From a virus, in the IMG/VR virus record IMGVR_UViG_3300028840_008186, positions 28,222 through 92,221 of that record: a DNA stretch of 64,000 nt; one strand, written 5' to 3'. Below are positions 50,547 to 60,328 of the stretch, piece after piece; positions within the stretch are counted from its first letter, which is position 1; each line of letters starts with the position of its first letter. The notes under the pieces were generated by a model. That model was not told the origin of the DNA, searched no databases, and was given only the letters and a program-made list of their open reading frames with translations. The position numbers and the translations under genes are program-made.

Positions 50547-51680
50547 ATGGGTAGGACAACTAAAAAAACCAAGACCGAGAAGCTGGCAGAGCAAGTCGAT
50601 TCGTTCGAGCCCGAAGTCAATGACGACGATGACCGGGACGCAAAAGACCCCAACAACTTTATCCCTACCGGCTCTATTATGCTTAACCTCGGCCTATCTG
50701 ATATGTGGAACGGCGGTTGGATGAAAGGCCGAATGCACCAGCTAATCGGAGACTCTTCCACTGGGAAGACTCTCGTGGCTGTGACTACCCTGGCCTGTAT
50801 GACCCAAGAGAAGCGATTCGATAATTATCGTTTGATATTCGACGATATTGAAAGGGGATGCGGCTTCGACATAACTGATGTGTCTAAACGACTGGCTGAA
50901 CGGATAGAGCCCCCTAGAGAACCGACTGAAGAAGACGATGGGTATTCTGACAGCATCGAAGACTTCTGGGACAATATTACCAATGCAATCGAGGACGGTC
51001 GGCCCTTTGTTTACATAGTGGACTCTTGGGACTCATTGGACTCACTGGATGATAAGAAGAAATTAGCCCAACAGAAAAAAGACCGGGAGGAGGGCAAAGA
51101 AACCAAAGGCTCTTATGGAGGAGCCAAGCCCAAGAAAGCCTCCGAGTTGCTTCGAAACATCAAATCATCAATTAAGAAAACCGATTCTATTTTGATTATC
51201 ATATCTCAAACCCGAGAAAGCATGGATACCTTCTCCTTTGAGAAACGATATGTGGCGGGAGGCAAAGCCATTAGGTTTTACAGCTGGAGCCGAATGTGGC
51301 TAGTATGGGCTGGTAAGATTACCAGGGGCTCCGACAAAAAGAAGGTACAGATCGGCGGTCGGTCCCTCATCGATATAGACAAAAACCGGACCACCGGAAA
51401 GAAACGCAAAGTCCCTATGGCTATCTATGATGAGTTTGGATTAGACGATTTGGGACCAACGATCGATTTTATGGTGGAGTGGAGTGAGAAATGGAAGAAA
51501 TCTAAAGCCTCTATCAAGTGCCCTAAAACATTTCTGGACGGAGCCACCATGTCTAGGACCAAGCTCATTGAGACCATCGAAGCAAAGGGATTGGAAAAAG
51601 AACTGGCCAAGCACGCCCAAAAGGCATGGAACGAGCGGGAAGCGTCCTTGAAATTGAATAGGAAAAAGAGGTTTCACTAA
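50547..51680 (+). CDS. RecA/UvsX-like recombinase
   Basis: A 377-residue strand-exchange ATPase with a CAAAGGAG SD. GDSSTGKTLVA (Walker A, about 68-78), FVYIVDSWDSLDS (Walker B, about 153-165), ILIIISQTRES (motif near the DNA-binding loop). It is divergent from bacterial RecA and closer in layout to UvsX-type phage proteins. Works with SSB and the nucleases around it in recombination-dependent replication. Confidence 0.82.
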   Translation: MGRTTKKTKTEKLAEQVDSFEPEVNDDDDRDAKDPNNFIPTGSIMLNLGLSDMWNGGWMKGRMHQLIGDSSTGKTLVAVTTLACMTQEKRFDNYRLIFDDIERGCGFDITDVSKRLAERIEPPREPTEEDDGYSDSIEDFWDNITNAIEDGRPFVYIVDSWDSLDSLDDKKKLAQQKKDREEGKETKGSYGGAKPKKASELLRNIKSSIKKTDSILIIISQTRESMDTFSFEKRYVAGGKAIRFYSWSRMWLVWAGKITRGSDKKKVQIGGRSLIDIDKNRTTGKKRKVPMAIYDEFGLDDLGPTIDFMVEWSEKWKKSKASIKCPKTFLDGATMSRTKLIETIEAKGLEKELAKHAQKAWNEREASLKLNRKKRFH

Positions 51681-52543
51681 TGAAAATAGTAGTGTTGGAT
51701 TCTAACTACCTTTGTTACAGGGCGCTTCATACTACTGGAGGGCTTTCGTATAAAAACATCAAAACCGGCGTGATATATGGGTTCTTAAACCAACTTCTTA
51801 CTATCGCAGGGCAGACCCGTCCTGATTCAGTAGTATTCGCTTGGGACTCCCGGCAATCCAAACGCCGGGAGATCTGCCCTTCCTACAAAAACCGTAAACA
51901 TCGGAGCGATCCTGTAGAAGCAGAGGAGATGCGAGATGTATTCAAGCAATTCCGCACTCTCAGGAAGGAAGTAATTCCTAATATTGGCTTCGATGATATC
52001 TTCAAATTCCGGGGCCTCGAGGCTGATGATATCATAGCCCAGATGGTAATGGATGAACGGTACAAGGATCATGAGTTCACTGTAGTCACTGGCGATGACG
52101 ATCTTCTTCAGCTCCTCGACTACTGTCGGATCTACCACCCTATGAAATTGGAATGGAAGGACCGGGATTGGTTTATCAAGTCCTATGGCATCGTCCCGCA
52201 GAAATGGACTATGGTCAAGCAAATGGCCGGTTGTACATCAGACAACGTAAAAGGGATCTCCGGGGTAGGTGAGAAGAAAGCGATCCAGTACCTGACCGGG
52301 AAGATGAGCCCTAACTCCAAGATATACAGTCGTATTGAATCTAAGGAAAGTCAGTTTATTATCAATCGCAACAAAGAGTTGGTTTGCCTTCCTTTCAAAG
52401 GAACGCCCAAAGTAGACCTGAGCGAATCAGAGGTACGAGTCCATATGCGGAGACTGAGAAGGATCTGTAAGGAATTAGGAATACGAACGCTAATCAGTCC
52501 TGATAAGCATGATGAATGGGAAGCTTATCTAAACGGAGAATGA
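51680..52543 (+). CDS. 5'-3' exonuclease/flap nuclease
   Basis: A 287-residue FEN/T4 RNase H-like nuclease. VVLDSNYLCYRA (metal Asp), FAWDSRQSKRREICPSYKNRK, FRGLEADDIIAQM (acidic cluster), VVTGDDDLLQLL, and a helix-hairpin-helix (VKGISGVGEKKAIQYL). Removes RNA primers and flaps; it replaces the missing 5' nuclease domain of the split PolA. Start overlaps the RecA stop. Confidence 0.88.
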   Translation: MKIVVLDSNYLCYRALHTTGGLSYKNIKTGVIYGFLNQLLTIAGQTRPDSVVFAWDSRQSKRREICPSYKNRKHRSDPVEAEEMRDVFKQFRTLRKEVIPNIGFDDIFKFRGLEADDIIAQMVMDERYKDHEFTVVTGDDDLLQLLDYCRIYHPMKLEWKDRDWFIKSYGIVPQKWTMVKQMAGCTSDNVKGISGVGEKKAIQYLTGKMSPNSKIYSRIESKESQFIINRNKELVCLPFKGTPKVDLSESEVRVHMRRLRRICKELGIRTLISPDKHDEWEAYLNGE

Positions 52544-52914: not shown

Positions 52915-53505
52915 ATGGCTTCTAATAAAGGTCCAAACTTCGAGAGATTGATACCAAGGGAACTGTCCCTTTGGTGGAGCGGGGGGAAGAGAGATGACAT
53001 ATTCTGGAGAGTCAAAGGATCCGGCGGTCGGGCCAAGACCCGACTCCGGACCAAAAAAGTCACAACATACGGCCAACATGGGGATATCAAAGCTGAAGAC
53101 CCAATTGGAGCTCCTCTCCTTACAGTTATCACTCTTGAGCTCAAGAACGGATATGGCCAGTGGAGCTTTCTCGACGTTCTCGACCATCCTCCAATGCGCA
53201 AAGGACAAAAGCATAGGACACTTCAAACCTTCGAAAGCTTTATGAATCAGGTCCAAGAGGATGCGGATGCGGTAGGGACTCACCCTGTCCTTATATGTAA
53301 GAGGGACAAAAGGCGCAAGTTCATCGTATTGCCCCTCTTGCTTTTTGCCGAGATACAAACTGGATATGGCGAGTATCAAGGTTTCACTATTACTATCGAG
53401 CGCAATGAATTCATCAAACAACCTATGATTGCGGTAGACTACGACCGCTTCTTTGGCTGGTGTCTGCCGGAGTTCTTCTTGAATTACGAGAAACGTAAAA
53501 GGTGA
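52915..53505 (+). CDS. PD-(D/E)XK-like nuclease
   Basis: A 196-residue protein. GQHGDIKAEDP (about 54-64), then VITLELKNGYG (about 70-80), give D...E-x-K of the restriction-endonuclease fold. Location amid RecA, exonuclease and Mre11-Rad50 genes fits a Holliday-junction resolvase or end-processing nuclease. Family membership is inferred from the motif only. Confidence 0.6.
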   Translation: MASNKGPNFERLIPRELSLWWSGGKRDDIFWRVKGSGGRAKTRLRTKKVTTYGQHGDIKAEDPIGAPLLTVITLELKNGYGQWSFLDVLDHPPMRKGQKHRTLQTFESFMNQVQEDADAVGTHPVLICKRDKRRKFIVLPLLLFAEIQTGYGEYQGFTITIERNEFIKQPMIAVDYDRFFGWCLPEFFLNYEKRKR

Positions 53506-53818: not shown

Positions 53819-53880
53819 ATTACAATCGGGGGACGTAGTAGGATTGGATTTAAATTTGAGGTTCGAGCCGGGGTTTGCAG

Positions 53881-54957
53881 ATGATCAATACAATCGAAAT
53901 AGAGAACTTCCAAAATATTCGCCACGCATCGATGGATCTGGATCCGGGGATTAACATCTTCATTGGGGAGTCGGATCAAGGGAAGTCAGCTATTGTAAAG
54001 GGCCTGTATTGGCTTTTCTTCAACCGGCCTTCGGGCGATGCGTTCGTGCGAGATGTCTCGCCAAATAAAAAAGCCTCTCGCTGTAGTTGTTCTGTTACCC
54101 TGGACAACGGTACAAAAATCGAGAGATATAAAGAGAGGAGCGAAAATGCGTACCTTATCGGCCAGAAAAAGAAGAAGGCGCTGCGGTCGGACGTACCCGA
54201 GGAAGTACTGGAAGCCCTCCCACTCTCTGAGACTAACATCCAAGCCCAATTCACCCCGTTCTTCTTGCTCTCCCTCTCCCCAGGACAACGGGCCAAGCTT
54301 CTCAACTCCGCTGTGGGACTTGATCAAATCGATCGGAGCCTGGGCTGCGTAAACTCTTTACAACGCGCTGCTGTGAAGGAAAAGAACCGGCTGGAGCAAT
54401 CGGTGGAAGAAAAGAAAGAGGAGCTGAGTTCCTATGCCTGGGTAGACGAAGCAATAGAAGCAATAGATCGATTGTGCAAACTTTACGATCGGGATAGCCA
54501 GCTCGCGGAGGACCGCGATTTCTTAAGGCACGTCCTAGAGCGTATTCAAGAATTGAACGCCACCCTCGACATTGATATCAAACCTACACTAGACGCGGCG
54601 GATGATATTAGTATACTCTCCGATAAAGCGCAGGAGTTCAAGCAGCAAGAAAAAGACTATCATTACTTGAACGGTCGCGTAGATTTTTTAAGGATCCAGG
54701 AGGAAGAGCTGGAGAATGCTTTGGAAATATTAGAAGCCCAGGGAGATATCGAAAAATTAAATGAATATATCTCACGTTTCAAAAGATTGGAAACTGAATC
54801 CGACTATCTGACCAGTCTAACTGAGCGGATGGCTAGATCCGCAAAGCAATTGAAGCTCGCTCAAAGAGACAAAAAGAAGGCTGAGGAACGATATGATAAT
54901 CTAATGGAAGGGTATAAACAATGCCCATTGTGCGGAAGTCATTTAAATGAAAATTGA
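53881..54957 (+). CDS. Rad50/SbcC N-terminal half ending in zinc hook
   Basis: A 358-residue ABC-type ATPase half. TIEIENFQNI start, then INIFIGESDQGKSAI (Walker A, about 27-41), a Q-loop zone near AQFTPFF, and a coiled coil from about 165. The protein stops at CPLCGSHLNEN: a hook CxxC lies nine residues from the C terminus. The ATPase C-terminal half is a separate gene at 56406. ATG 53881 was chosen over an in-frame TTG six bases upstream. The hook could still dimerise via zinc. Confidence 0.8.
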   Translation: MINTIEIENFQNIRHASMDLDPGINIFIGESDQGKSAIVKGLYWLFFNRPSGDAFVRDVSPNKKASRCSCSVTLDNGTKIERYKERSENAYLIGQKKKKALRSDVPEEVLEALPLSETNIQAQFTPFFLLSLSPGQRAKLLNSAVGLDQIDRSLGCVNSLQRAAVKEKNRLEQSVEEKKEELSSYAWVDEAIEAIDRLCKLYDRDSQLAEDRDFLRHVLERIQELNATLDIDIKPTLDAADDISILSDKAQEFKQQEKDYHYLNGRVDFLRIQEEELENALEILEAQGDIEKLNEYISRFKRLETESDYLTSLTERMARSAKQLKLAQRDKKKAEERYDNLMEGYKQCPLCGSHLNEN

Positions 54958-55324
54958 AAGGTACGGAGTTCATAAAATAAGCGGGGAGACTTGCTTTCTG
55001 TTGGAGTTTTGGGGAGATCCCGGGATTGGCAAAAAGATCTTGGAAGCTTTTGATCGTATTATTGCTGAGTCTATTGTGCCGAAACCCGAAAAGCCTACGC
55101 CTAAATCAAATCGTAGAATACCAATTGAAGAACTTTGGGAATCCCTGATGAGGAATGATTGGACTGTGTCGCGGGTAGCTGCGGAATATGACCTCAGTCG
55201 GGGTACTATTTATAATCGAATGTCTGTTCAAGGCATAAGCCGAAACAAGGAGAAAGCCATTGCACGTTGGGGGCATGCCGGACCTTCATCTAAGAGGGAC
55301 CGCACCGGCGAGACGAACAGATAA
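54947..55324 (+). CDS. HTH protein within the Rad50-Mre11 operon
   Basis: A 125-residue protein overlapping the Rad50 N-half. C-terminal region: WTVSRVAAEYDLSRGTIYNRMSVQGI is a helix-turn-helix. The first 50 residues are beta-like. Its 3' end overlaps the Mre11-like gene by 65 bases. Could regulate the operon or guide the complex to DNA. Confidence 0.6.
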   Translation: MKIERYGVHKISGETCFLLEFWGDPGIGKKILEAFDRIIAESIVPKPEKPTPKSNRRIPIEELWESLMRNDWTVSRVAAEYDLSRGTIYNRMSVQGISRNKEKAIARWGHAGPSSKRDRTGETNR

Positions 55325-56162
55325 GTATTACGATACTCAATTTGAAAAGGCAGAGTTCTGCTTTGAGACTTTCGAAGACAGAGGCGTTGAAGTAGTTTGC
55401 TTTCCGGGAGATGTATTCAATAATTATGGCAGAGATCCCTATTATTTATTGGTAGACCTGCTGCAACTCCTGAGACGGTACAGCTTCGAAGTCGTAATGG
55501 TTTATGGGCAGCACGATCTCCGCTTCCATGATCTAACCGATCGCAATACTCCGGCCAGAGCCTTGACCTGTAATGAGCAGGTCACGCTTTTAGAATCCTC
55601 TCCCCATTCTATTGGCGATGCATTGTTTCACGGAGCCAGTTGGGGAGAGCCTATTCCGAAGTTCAAAAGAAAGGAGGCCTCCAATGTGTTGGTCTGTCAC
55701 AAGACTATCGGCAAGGCCTGGAAGGGTCAAACCGGCTATCTCCCGGCTAAAAGATTTCTCAAAGGGAATCCTTTTGATCTTATCATTTCCGGCGATAATC
55801 ATGCTAGTTTTCATACGGTGGATGGTTCTGGGCGTTGTCTTGTTAATAGCGGTTCTTTGTGTAGGATGGAAAAGGACCAGGCCGACCATAAACCGAATTG
55901 TTCGATCTTCAATACAAAATCTAAAGAACTTGAGATCATAAAAATTCCAGTTCAGCCCTTTGAAGAAATAATGGATTTGTCCTCGGAGCCTGAACCGAAG
56001 GCAGCCGAGTACAGTGAGAAATATCTGGCCTCTTTCGTAAAGGGGCTTGAAGAAAAGATGGGGAGCAGTAATAAATCCGCGTACCGGAACGCATTGGACT
56101 TGTTGTTCCCATCCATTAACCCTAGCGCGCAAAATATTATAAAGGAGTGTTGTAATGGTTGA
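55260..56162 (+). CDS. Mre11/SbcD-like nuclease
   Basis: A 300-residue metallophosphoesterase, TTG start with AAGGAGAAAG upstream. Motifs: GMPDLHLR (D-x-H), CFPGDVFNN (GD), YGQHDL (GNH variant with Gln), VCHKTIG (H), SGDNHASFH. The C-terminal helical part could cap or bind Rad50. Partner of the split Rad50 in this operon; acts in DNA end processing. Confidence 0.8.
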   Translation: MHVGGMPDLHLRGTAPARRTDKYYDTQFEKAEFCFETFEDRGVEVVCFPGDVFNNYGRDPYYLLVDLLQLLRRYSFEVVMVYGQHDLRFHDLTDRNTPARALTCNEQVTLLESSPHSIGDALFHGASWGEPIPKFKRKEASNVLVCHKTIGKAWKGQTGYLPAKRFLKGNPFDLIISGDNHASFHTVDGSGRCLVNSGSLCRMEKDQADHKPNCSIFNTKSKELEIIKIPVQPFEEIMDLSSEPEPKAAEYSEKYLASFVKGLEEKMGSSNKSAYRNALDLLFPSINPSAQNIIKECCNG

Positions 56163-56409
56163 CAATGCGTTGGAAGAACTTATGGAAGAAGCTGAAGGCC
56201 TTGTTCGCCGGATAGAGAAGGCCAAGATTGAAGAGGCGAAAGTACGCGGTAAAATTGAGGAAGCCAAGGAAGCAATGGTGGAACGGTTTGGCGTGGAAAA
56301 AACCAAAGATGCTAAGAAGAAGCTAGAGGAAATCGAGGAAGAAATGGACAAGGTCGGAGAGGAAATGAGAGCGCTCCGAGAAGGCATCAAGGATAAGTAC
56401 GGGATATGA
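56155..56409 (+). CDS. Coiled-coil protein between Mre11 and Rad50 C-half
   Basis: An 84-residue, entirely coiled-coil protein (Glu/Lys/Ala heptads), AAAGGAG SD, overlapping both neighbours by a few bases. It may provide or brace part of the missing ascending Rad50 coil; inferred from position. Confidence 0.7.
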   Translation: MVDNALEELMEEAEGLVRRIEKAKIEEAKVRGKIEEAKEAMVERFGVEKTKDAKKKLEEIEEEMDKVGEEMRALREGIKDKYGI

Positions 56410-57026
56410 ACGAAGCAGAGGATCTGACAAAGCTCCAAGAAACAATACACAAACGAGTAGCCACGCGAGATTACATCGCGCAGGACCTGAAGCGGCTGAA
56501 GCTCAAACTCCGCGCCCAGAAGCGTTACCTGGAAGACGTAGAAGAGGCGCGGGGGGTAATGCAGATGGCGGCGGAGATGGCGCAACGGCATTTGGAGTTC
56601 CATATTGCCAATCTAGTGTCCTCAGCATTGTACGCAGTATTTCCAGATCCGTACAAGTTCGTGGTTCGGTTCGTCTCCAGGCGAAACACTACCGAGTGCG
56701 ATATGTTCTTCGAGAAAAACGGGATTGAGATGGAGCCTGAGTTCGCCTCCGGGGGAGGTCCACTAGATGTCGCTTCCTTCGCCTCCCGAATAAGCCAATT
56801 GACCTTGGAAGAGGTTATGCCCTTAGTAATCCTGGATGAGCCTTTTAAAAACCTTAGCAAGAACCTGATAGAAAATGCGTGCGCTATGTTAAATGCTCTG
56901 AAAGAAAAGTTGGGGATTCAATTTATTATAGTAACGCATGTACCGGAACTGGTCAAGGCCGGTGATGCCGTCTTTCAGGTCCACAATGGAGAGGTGCGAT
57001 CATGGCAGGAATCCACGAAATCTTAG
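56406..57026 (+). CDS. Rad50/SbcC C-terminal half
   Basis: A 206-residue protein. Starts with a coiled coil (1-70), then ATPase C-lobe: EFASGGGPLDVASFASR (signature-like, about 117-133), LVILDEPFKNLS (Walker B, about 144-155), IIVTHVPEL (H-loop). It has no CxxC hook. With the protein at 53881 it reconstitutes a complete ABC ATPase. ATG overlaps the previous stop. Confidence 0.8.
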   Translation: MNEAEDLTKLQETIHKRVATRDYIAQDLKRLKLKLRAQKRYLEDVEEARGVMQMAAEMAQRHLEFHIANLVSSALYAVFPDPYKFVVRFVSRRNTTECDMFFEKNGIEMEPEFASGGGPLDVASFASRISQLTLEEVMPLVILDEPFKNLSKNLIENACAMLNALKEKLGIQFIIVTHVPELVKAGDAVFQVHNGEVRSWQESTKS

Positions 57027-58602: not shown

Positions 58603-58961
58603 TGGGACACAGAAAAGTGAAACTAGGTTTGCTGGAGAACGGGTCAATTATGATCGGGACGTTAACAAAAGGGGAACTGACCGATGCCTTCCGTTTGGTA
58701 GCGAAACCGTCTGAGAAACCAGGCGACTTTGCTATCGAGTTTATAAACCCGTTCGTTCCTTACAATGGGAAGATGAATTCAGCTCTGGACCGGATGGGAA
58801 CCCGGGCTTTTATTGCTTTTTCGTCTGCCAGTGAGAACATTGAGGCAAAATATTTAGAACTGGTGACTGGCGTAACCTTGCCGCAACGCAAAAATGCGCG
58901 GGGCGGCAAAATAGTCTCGGCCAATATTATTGACGGGGTCAATTTTAAAGATGGGAAGTAA
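58602..58961 (+). CDS. Hypothetical protein
   Basis: A 119-residue protein; ATG overlaps the previous stop (TAATG) after AAGGAGGAAC. Beta-rich start (KVKLGLLENGSIMIGTL). No family was recognised; neighbours are nucleotide hydrolases and a glycosyltransferase. Confidence 0.65.
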   Translation: MGHRKVKLGLLENGSIMIGTLTKGELTDAFRLVAKPSEKPGDFAIEFINPFVPYNGKMNSALDRMGTRAFIAFSSASENIEAKYLELVTGVTLPQRKNARGGKIVSANIIDGVNFKDGK

Positions 58962-59664
58962 ACCAACCATTACTGTAATCTCCTTTCTATGGGGAGGGTG
59001 GTATGGCCTGAAAAAAGAGTACCTGTCCGCTCTGGAAAAAGGCATCCGCTCCCATACCACTTTTCCCCTTAGATTTGTGTGCCTTTCTCCTGATGAAAAG
59101 GGACCTATCGGCTCCTGGGAATTCTTGCCTTTAAAAGCTCCTAGCGAAAAACAGAACCTAAAGAAGTTAGGATTATACAATCCCGCCAACGGATTCCACG
59201 GGAGGCTGTTCGTTGTAGACCTAGATGTTATAATCGTTGGATCGCTGGACGATCTCTTCTCCTTAGATGGAGAATTTTATGTCAAAGCGGAACATACCCC
59301 TTATTTAAGAGGGACTTTAGTGCCAGACGGCGACATATACCTTCAAAACGTAAATAAAGCCACCTGGGATAAAGTCTGGAATTTTATAAACAGAAATATT
59401 GGAGCAATACAAGCGAATACACGAGGCCGAGAGCGAAAGTTCTATCAACGATATGCTGAATTGTTCTGGAACGTGACTTTCCTTCAGGCAGTATGCCCAG
59501 GCCGGATCTTCTCCTACAAAAGGGACAAGATTTATAGAACAAAGGAGATACCGGAGGGGGCCAGCTTAATAAGCTTCCACGGGCGAAAGGCTAAACCGCA
59601 CTACCACAATTGGATAATGGAAAGGTATTGGTATGAAAATCACATTGATAACAGGGGCTCCTAG
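58951..59664 (+). CDS. Glycosyltransferase
   Basis: A 237-residue protein; ATG 58951 overlaps the previous gene. ITVISFLWGGWYGLKKEYLSAL start, then LFVVDLDVIIVGSLDDLF (about 85-102) with a DxD metal-nucleotide-sugar site, as in GT-A fold (GT8-like) enzymes. Acceptor unknown: DNA bases, phage structural protein or host envelope. Tightly followed by a sulfotransferase gene. Confidence 0.75.
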   Translation: MGSKPTITVISFLWGGWYGLKKEYLSALEKGIRSHTTFPLRFVCLSPDEKGPIGSWEFLPLKAPSEKQNLKKLGLYNPANGFHGRLFVVDLDVIIVGSLDDLFSLDGEFYVKAEHTPYLRGTLVPDGDIYLQNVNKATWDKVWNFINRNIGAIQANTRGRERKFYQRYAELFWNVTFLQAVCPGRIFSYKRDKIYRTKEIPEGASLISFHGRKAKPHYHNWIMERYWYENHIDNRGS

Positions 59665-60328
59665 ATCTGGAACCAGCATGATTGCTGGGATAATTGCTAA
59701 GTGCGGAGCTTTCGGCGGCAAGACCAGTCCACCCAATCCTAATAATCAAAAGGGCATGTTTGAAAACATGTATATTCGCAATCAGCTGGTCAAGCCCTTT
59801 TTGAAGAATCTAGGAGTGGACCCTTTGGGCCAGTTTCCTCTACCGAATCCGAGGCGCTTCATCCCCAAAAACAAATATGCCAAACCCATGCTACAAGGAA
59901 GGGAACTGCGGCGGCAAGTACTAACGACCTTCCACAATGAAGGGTGGGATCGGAAAGCTCCCTTGTATTATAAGGGACCCAAGATGTGCATCATGTGGCC
60001 CTTTTGGGTATTCTCTTTTCCAGAAGCTAAATGGCTATTGGTTCACCGGGATATTGATCAAATAGCAGCCTCTTGTAAACGGACTCCTTTTATGAAAGCC
60101 TATGAGAGCGCGCATGAGTGGAAATGGTTCGCTGAAAAATACAGGGAGTATATGGGCAAAATAAAAGAATACATACCGGAAGACAGATGGCGCGAAGTAT
60201 GGAGCAACAAAGTGATTGAAGACTATACTCTAATGAAACCTATGATCGATTGGCTCGGGCTCGAGTGGAAAGAAGATGAGGTGAGAGAATTCATCGATCC
60301 CGCTTTGTATAATCAAGGGCGTAGTTAA
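59633..60328 (+). CDS. Sulfotransferase-like protein
   Basis: A 231-residue P-loop protein. ITGAPRSGTSMIAGII (residues 5-20) is the 5'-phosphosulfate loop, and LLVHRDIDQIAAS (about 133-145) matches the 3'-phosphate motif of PAPS sulfotransferases. Overlaps the glycosyltransferase by 32 bases and, tail to tail, the endolysin gene by 38 bases. Likely sulfates the glycan or another small acceptor; substrate unknown. Confidence 0.75.
   Translation: MKITLITGAPRSGTSMIAGIIAKCGAFGGKTSPPNPNNQKGMFENMYIRNQLVKPFLKNLGVDPLGQFPLPNPRRFIPKNKYAKPMLQGRELRRQVLTTFHNEGWDRKAPLYYKGPKMCIMWPFWVFSFPEAKWLLVHRDIDQIAASCKRTPFMKAYESAHEWKWFAEKYREYMGKIKEYIPEDRWREVWSNKVIEDYTLMKPMIDWLGLEWKEDEVREFIDPALYNQGRS

Follow-up and report, generated by a model that had tools for sequence, protein, structure and literature searches.

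A stretch of viral DNA of 64,000 nucleotides (the window; bases 28222-92221 of a virus record of 92,221 bases) was found to carry Rad50 as separate genes, the first of which ends at the zinc hook. The split is genuine, it is conserved, and purifying selection acts on it; the window very probably encodes a working Mre11-Rad50 complex in which Rad50 consists of three polypeptides. The three-piece protein is clearly a Rad50 by motifs, fold and partner; the one feature in which it fails is that of a single polypeptide. The family of split Rad50 proteins is large, present in phages, plasmids and bacterial chromosomes, and apparently undescribed.

Five genes follow each other on the + strand of the window, each overlapping its neighbor. 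These are the Rad50 N-half (ATG at 53881, or an upstream TTG at 53875, to 54957), an HTH-like protein (54947-55324) with weak HTH matches only, an Mre11/SbcD-like nuclease (TTG start at 55260, to 56162), a coil subunit of 84 aa (56155-56409), which is a candidate for the return strand of the arm, and the Rad50 C-half of 206 aa (56406-57026). The coil stop and the C-half start share the bases ATGA. The HTH, Mre11-like and coil genes are placed between the two halves, as stated in an earlier note on this DNA. Upstream of the N-half, genes for a RecA-like protein (50547-51680), a 5'-3' exonuclease (51680-52543) and a PDDEXK nuclease (52915-53505) are located. In relatives, for example L041, L043 and L044, the HTH gene was not seen at the corresponding site; it is an insertion local to the window virus and probably outside the complex. 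No other Rad50 was detected in the 92-kb virus record by AAA_23 or phrog_77. Further downstream, at 58930-60328, two adjoining ORFs resemble, as judged by eye only, a glycosyltransferase-type and a sulfotransferase-type protein.

The N-half comprises the Rad50 N-lobe and the descending arm. Walker A, GESDQGKS (53965-53988, + strand), was identified in the lobe, with G31, G36 and K37 invariant in alignment A1. The final stretch of the protein is QCPLCGSHLNEN and its C-terminus reads GYKQCPLCGSHLNEN, including the zinc-hook motif CPLC (54922-54933, + strand), of which C350, P351 and C353 are invariant in the same alignment. Two features of Rad50/SbcC, an N-lobe with Walker A and a CxxC hook in the arm, are thus present. 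The N-half thus ends at the hook and in a gene of its own, as the earlier note had stated; the tail, described there as CPLCG plus six residues, is given here as seven residues (GSHLNEN) after CPLC. Pfam matches were obtained to AAA_15 (5.5e-13) and AAA_23 (4.2e-9), phrog_16465 matched at 3.4e-35, and the start of the NCBIfam Rad50 models aligned to the first approximately 100 residues. The AlphaFold model (pLDDT 67.3) was weaker than that of the C-half; Foldseek matches to it included the Rad50 N-segments 1ii8_A and 1f2u_A.

The C-half consists of the C-lobe preceded by an ascending helix, which is about 60 residues long. It contains, in the expected order, the ABC signature variant SGGG (56748-56759), Walker B, LVILDE (56823-56840), and the H-loop, TH (56934-56939), all on the + strand. 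Across 42 relatives, G116, G117 and G118 were nearly invariant and D144 and E145 fully so; T177 and H178 were invariant in alignment A3. All C-lobe features of Rad50/SbcC are therefore present, the signature in a variant form, and a CxxC motif is absent; the description of this protein as a separate 206-residue C-lobe lacking a hook was confirmed. The protein matched phrog_15167 (3.4e-23) and, under Pfam's cut-off, SMC_N (9.4e-5), and the end of the NCBIfam Rad50 models aligned to its last approximately 100 residues. Its AlphaFold model (pLDDT 93.4) showed a helix at residues 3-78 followed by the lobe, and Foldseek matches included the Rad50 C-segments 1ii8_B and 1f2u_B, with P. furiosus Rad50 among the matches. 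In the entries 1f2u and 1ii8 the N- and C-segments of Rad50 are separate chains that correspond to the two halves; thus, the lobes are able to join without a covalent link.

The Mre11-like protein of the window matched Metallophos (7e-7, Pfam) and phrog_100 (2.9e-4). Its motifs read DLH, GDVFN, GQHD, H and GDNH as compared to DxH, GDxxD, GNHD, H and GHxH. Among 79 aligned relatives, 14 have Q instead of N and 22 have D instead of the first H of GHxH; both changes are therefore common to a subgroup of viral relatives. An identical H-to-D change is known from Mimivirus R555 (PMC3175470). The changes in GQHD and GDNH might influence activity, and metal binding is possibly altered. Mre11 adjoins the Rad50 halves in nearly all loci. 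In five loci it is fused to the N-half (L063:5111-7429, L064:5570-7885, L168:5008-7821, L175:3942-6467, L176:3915-6323); these fusions have 771-937 aa, end at the hook in all cases but L064, and are each followed by a separate C-half gene.

The split was also sought in related phages and was found, for example in Bacillus phage vB_BboS-125 and Microcystis phage Mvi-JY20. Searches of viral contigs with single proteins of the window and of L064 returned identical copies only; the family was reached by a search with the C-half of vB_BboS-125, which revealed 27 IMG/VR loci, all of them split, and by alignment searches, which added many more. Iterated profile models were then used to annotate the 78 loci whose C-halves remained distinct once duplicates had been removed. 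Two gene orders dominated: N-coil-C-Mre11, with long arms and N-halves of mostly 450-540 aa, and N-Mre11-coil-C, the type of the window, with short arms and N-halves of mostly 304-415 aa. In vB_BboS-125, gp32 (471 aa) terminates ICPLCEQTHKGGGC and is followed by an AP2/HNH gene, a coil of 78 aa, a C-half of 211 aa and an Mre11-like gene (326 aa; L001:9256-10236, NC_048735.1), which lacks an annotation and occupies an interval between genes that have one. The deposited phage Mvi-JY20 belongs to the window's type, with every part annotated as hypothetical protein. In a tree of C-halves, the window, represented by its identical copy L004, fell into a clade of 17 viral sequences, all short-arm, with support of 100/98; chromosomal copies and other viral groups were placed outside it. 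Fusions of Mre11 to Rad50N, followed by coil and C-half, are encoded by plasmids of Paenibacillus polymyxa SC2 (841 aa) and Geobacillus subterraneus (802 aa). The split is no peculiarity of phages; plasmids and bacterial chromosomes carry it too.

In 104 of 106 distinct N-halves, a CxxC motif was followed by no more than 32 residues; as a control, CxxC occurred within the last 40 residues of 11 out of 326 other ORFs (250-600 aa) from the same loci. The two exceptions were L064, with 138 further residues beyond the hook, and L037, in which the ORF stops just before it. This latter N-half (L037:2342-3607), from a Lachnospiraceae MAG, ends with AAWEAAGGV, directly in front of the position at which its relatives have the hook cysteine; the stop is a point change or a sequencing error. 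All 102 distinct C-halves were encoded by ORFs of not more than 304 aa and lacked CxxC. Wherever both halves were found in a locus they formed separate ORFs with complementary Rad50 motifs, and a one-polypeptide Rad50 with a hook midway between the coil strands was not found in any locus, the hook being C-terminal. The dN/dS ratio of the pieces was 0.04-0.24 in the nine pairs for which it could be computed.

The distribution in bacterial chromosomes was analyzed in the class that includes Brevibacillus fulvus (Bacilli). Among 400 genomes of this class, a profile search revealed 67 matches; 49 were strong, with E values not above 2e-38, and the strong ones were all located in ORFs of 215-300 aa. 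In a single family, exactly one copy was present in each of 23 genomes. In a second class, that of a Lachnospiraceae genome, which we take to be Clostridia, 21 of 291 genomes carried one. A frequent chromosomal order in Bacillota genomes was recA-(recX)-Mre11-N-coil-C-rny, with rny encoding RNase Y. The recA-(recX)-Mre11-N-coil-C cluster was observed in the Bacilli loci L163, L165, L166 and L170 and in L184-L187, L189, L192, L193, L197 and L198 of the second class; the identification of RecA, RecX and RNase Y is based on Pfam in L163 and on reading by eye in the other loci.

In five genomes (G630, G686, G494, G588 and G520) the C-half stands alone, flanked by genes reading as folD and rny, and Mre11, N-half and coil form another cluster away from it. 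The two sites are located at 1.62 and 2.73 Mb of one 4.9-Mb contig in G630, 1.1 Mb apart, and at 1.64 and 1.97 Mb of one 3.6-Mb contig in G686, 0.33 Mb apart; frameshifting and local assembly error are therefore excluded in these two genomes. The different places of Mre11-N-coil and C-half imply that Rad50 would be assembled in trans.

Additionally, the carriers were searched for canonical SbcC. No match above the curated cut-off of TIGR00618, which is strict in that only 1 of 14 controls passed it, was obtained in the 23-genome family or in 15 mixed carriers; hence, the scarcity of long matches weighs more than the cut-off result. A clear canonical SbcC (921 aa), under the cut-off, was found in G635 as the sole case among the 15 carriers, and carrier genomes may therefore be misjudged as lacking Rad50. 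In some of the 23 family genomes, PF13558 detected ORFs of 657-1,415 aa.

The coil forms a family of its own, the long-arm type of which is phrog_18563. A coil gene of 75-100 aa was present in nearly all complete loci; it was not found beside L044 and L194. The coil of the window reached 25.7 bits with a short-arm coil model built without it, as compared to a maximum of 12.4 bits for 240 arm segments and 11.5 bits for 2,000 shuffles. In L064 no separate coil was found, and the N-half runs past the hook up to the C-half gene. This tail was tried as a coil homologue and rejected, because its 10.0 bits were not significant against arm controls of up to 11.2; its position alone was thus used as evidence. 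We lean towards the coil being the return strand of the arm, or a part of it. The earlier note had proposed the 84-residue coil for this role. The coil as a fixed partner stood up, and the tail of L064 in the coil's place and the coil gene beside the N-half in the five genomes with distant halves argue indirectly for its function as return strand; the arm lengths do not match. In the window, coil and C-half helix together have about 140 residues versus about 180 in the N-arm, and in long-arm relatives the N-arm reaches about 290 residues, about twice coil plus C-half helix. Simple end-to-end pairing therefore fails, and in the long-arm members a part of the arm must fold on itself or remain unpaired. 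A hook on a single coil strand could not be upheld as established.

On the basis of existing knowledge about Rad50 proteins, the complex may be envisaged as follows. The N-half would supply Walker A, the descending arm and CxxC at its extreme end, and the C-half the ascending helix, signature, Walker B and H-loop. N-lobe and C-lobe would associate non-covalently and in trans to give a single ABC head, and by analogy two heads may close on ATP and gate an Mre11 dimer for DNA-end binding and nuclease activity. The coil would pack against the arm, where it would most likely serve as the return strand that is missing between hook and C-half. The arms would extend, and two of them may, again by analogy, be joined by one zinc held by two terminal CxxC motifs. 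In the phage, the probable task of the complex is the processing of DNA ends during replication and recombination; its genes lie beside those for the RecA-like protein and the 5'-3' exonuclease. The association in trans, the ATPase and nuclease activities, the binding of zinc and the place of the coil are all predicted in this scheme.

The main competitor, to which we give roughly one chance in three, is also a three-piece Rad50. In this version the N-arm would fold back on itself into a helical rod, the coil would be a clamp or regulatory subunit, and the hook would not necessarily be at the apex of the arm. The length mismatch in long-arm members is consistent with such folding, as is the highly variable arm length among relatives versus a constant coil of 75-100 aa. 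The model of the window N-half points the same way with a helix break at residues 288-295 and a last helix at 295-348; however, this break lies in a part of low confidence (pLDDT below 50). Moreover, L064 runs past the hook where the coil would be, and the coil gene keeps beside the N-half in the five genomes, both of which argue against this version.

The lone C-half between folD and rny, far from Mre11-N-coil, could also indicate two separate machines, with N-half, Mre11 and coil working without the C-half and the C-half having another partner. However, the five genomes concerned retain both halves, each half lacks some motifs required for ATP hydrolysis, and the halves adjoin in nearly all other loci, so that we regard this explanation as very improbable. 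A single-chain Rad50 broken by sequencing error, frameshifting or gene decay would agree with the single chain being the rule elsewhere, but its probability is practically nil. All 3,152 bases from 53875 to 57026 are identical in another IMG/VR contig (L004), the identical split occurs under purifying selection in more than 100 distinct sequences, and the halves are separated by another gene or by up to 1.1 Mb; the second contig, the relatives and the intervening genes already refute it. Neither of the outcomes named in the earlier note as speaking against the split, halves joined on resequencing and relatives with a single Rad50 and the same intervening genes elsewhere, was found.

The Rad50 chain is interrupted both at the hook and ahead of the C-lobe, and this state has been kept across two bacterial classes and many viruses, which bears on the communication between hook and heads along the Rad50 arm. 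Its three parts can be expressed separately; hook, arm and heads could thus be mixed, labelled and mutated independently. Rather speculatively, and less likely than not, Rad50 may be an old heterotrimer with the hook on a free C-terminus, an arm closed by a removable coil and lobes joined non-covalently only, and in most tested carrier chromosomes this may be the cell's only MR complex of such type. If so, release of the coil could open the arm, and DNA could pass without unlocking hook or heads.

The usual Rad50 signature has the LSGG-E/Q form. Like Mre11-Rad50/SbcCD, the system described here has ABC lobes with Walker A, signature, Walker B and H-loop, a coiled arm, a CxxC hook and an Mre11-like partner; it differs in its three Rad50 polypeptides, its C-terminal hook, its extra coil subunit and a signature of SGGG or RGGG. 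Because Rad50 comes in three pieces, its genes are annotated as exonuclease, hypothetical protein and ATPase. In PHROGs, the long-arm N-half (phrog_16465, exonuclease), the coil (phrog_18563, unknown) and the C-half (phrog_15167, ATPase) are separate families and are not connected as one split Rad50. SbcCD was reported to be practically universal in jumbo phages, in passages that do not mention a split (PMC7824862). No description of a split Rad50 was found in the open-licence literature, the absence there being weak evidence. The archaeal HerA-NurA-Mre11-Rad50 cluster is resembled by L164:61-3038, where NurA, HerA-like, Mre11, N, coil and C genes stand in a row; in contrast to that cluster, L164 belongs to the class Bacilli and carries a split Rad50, and HerA and NurA are missing in most loci. 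Finally, Mre11/Rad50 fusions from Anaerostipes and Bacillus phage 0305phi8-36 were described in which one NTPase segment is missing, unexplained (Yoshida 2011, PMC3175470). The five fusions of Mre11 to the N-half described above are alike; unlike in those earlier cases, the missing lobe is located here, in a gene of its own after the coil gene. A separate C-lobe gene is thus a candidate explanation for the lobe missing in the Anaerostipes and 0305phi8-36 fusions.
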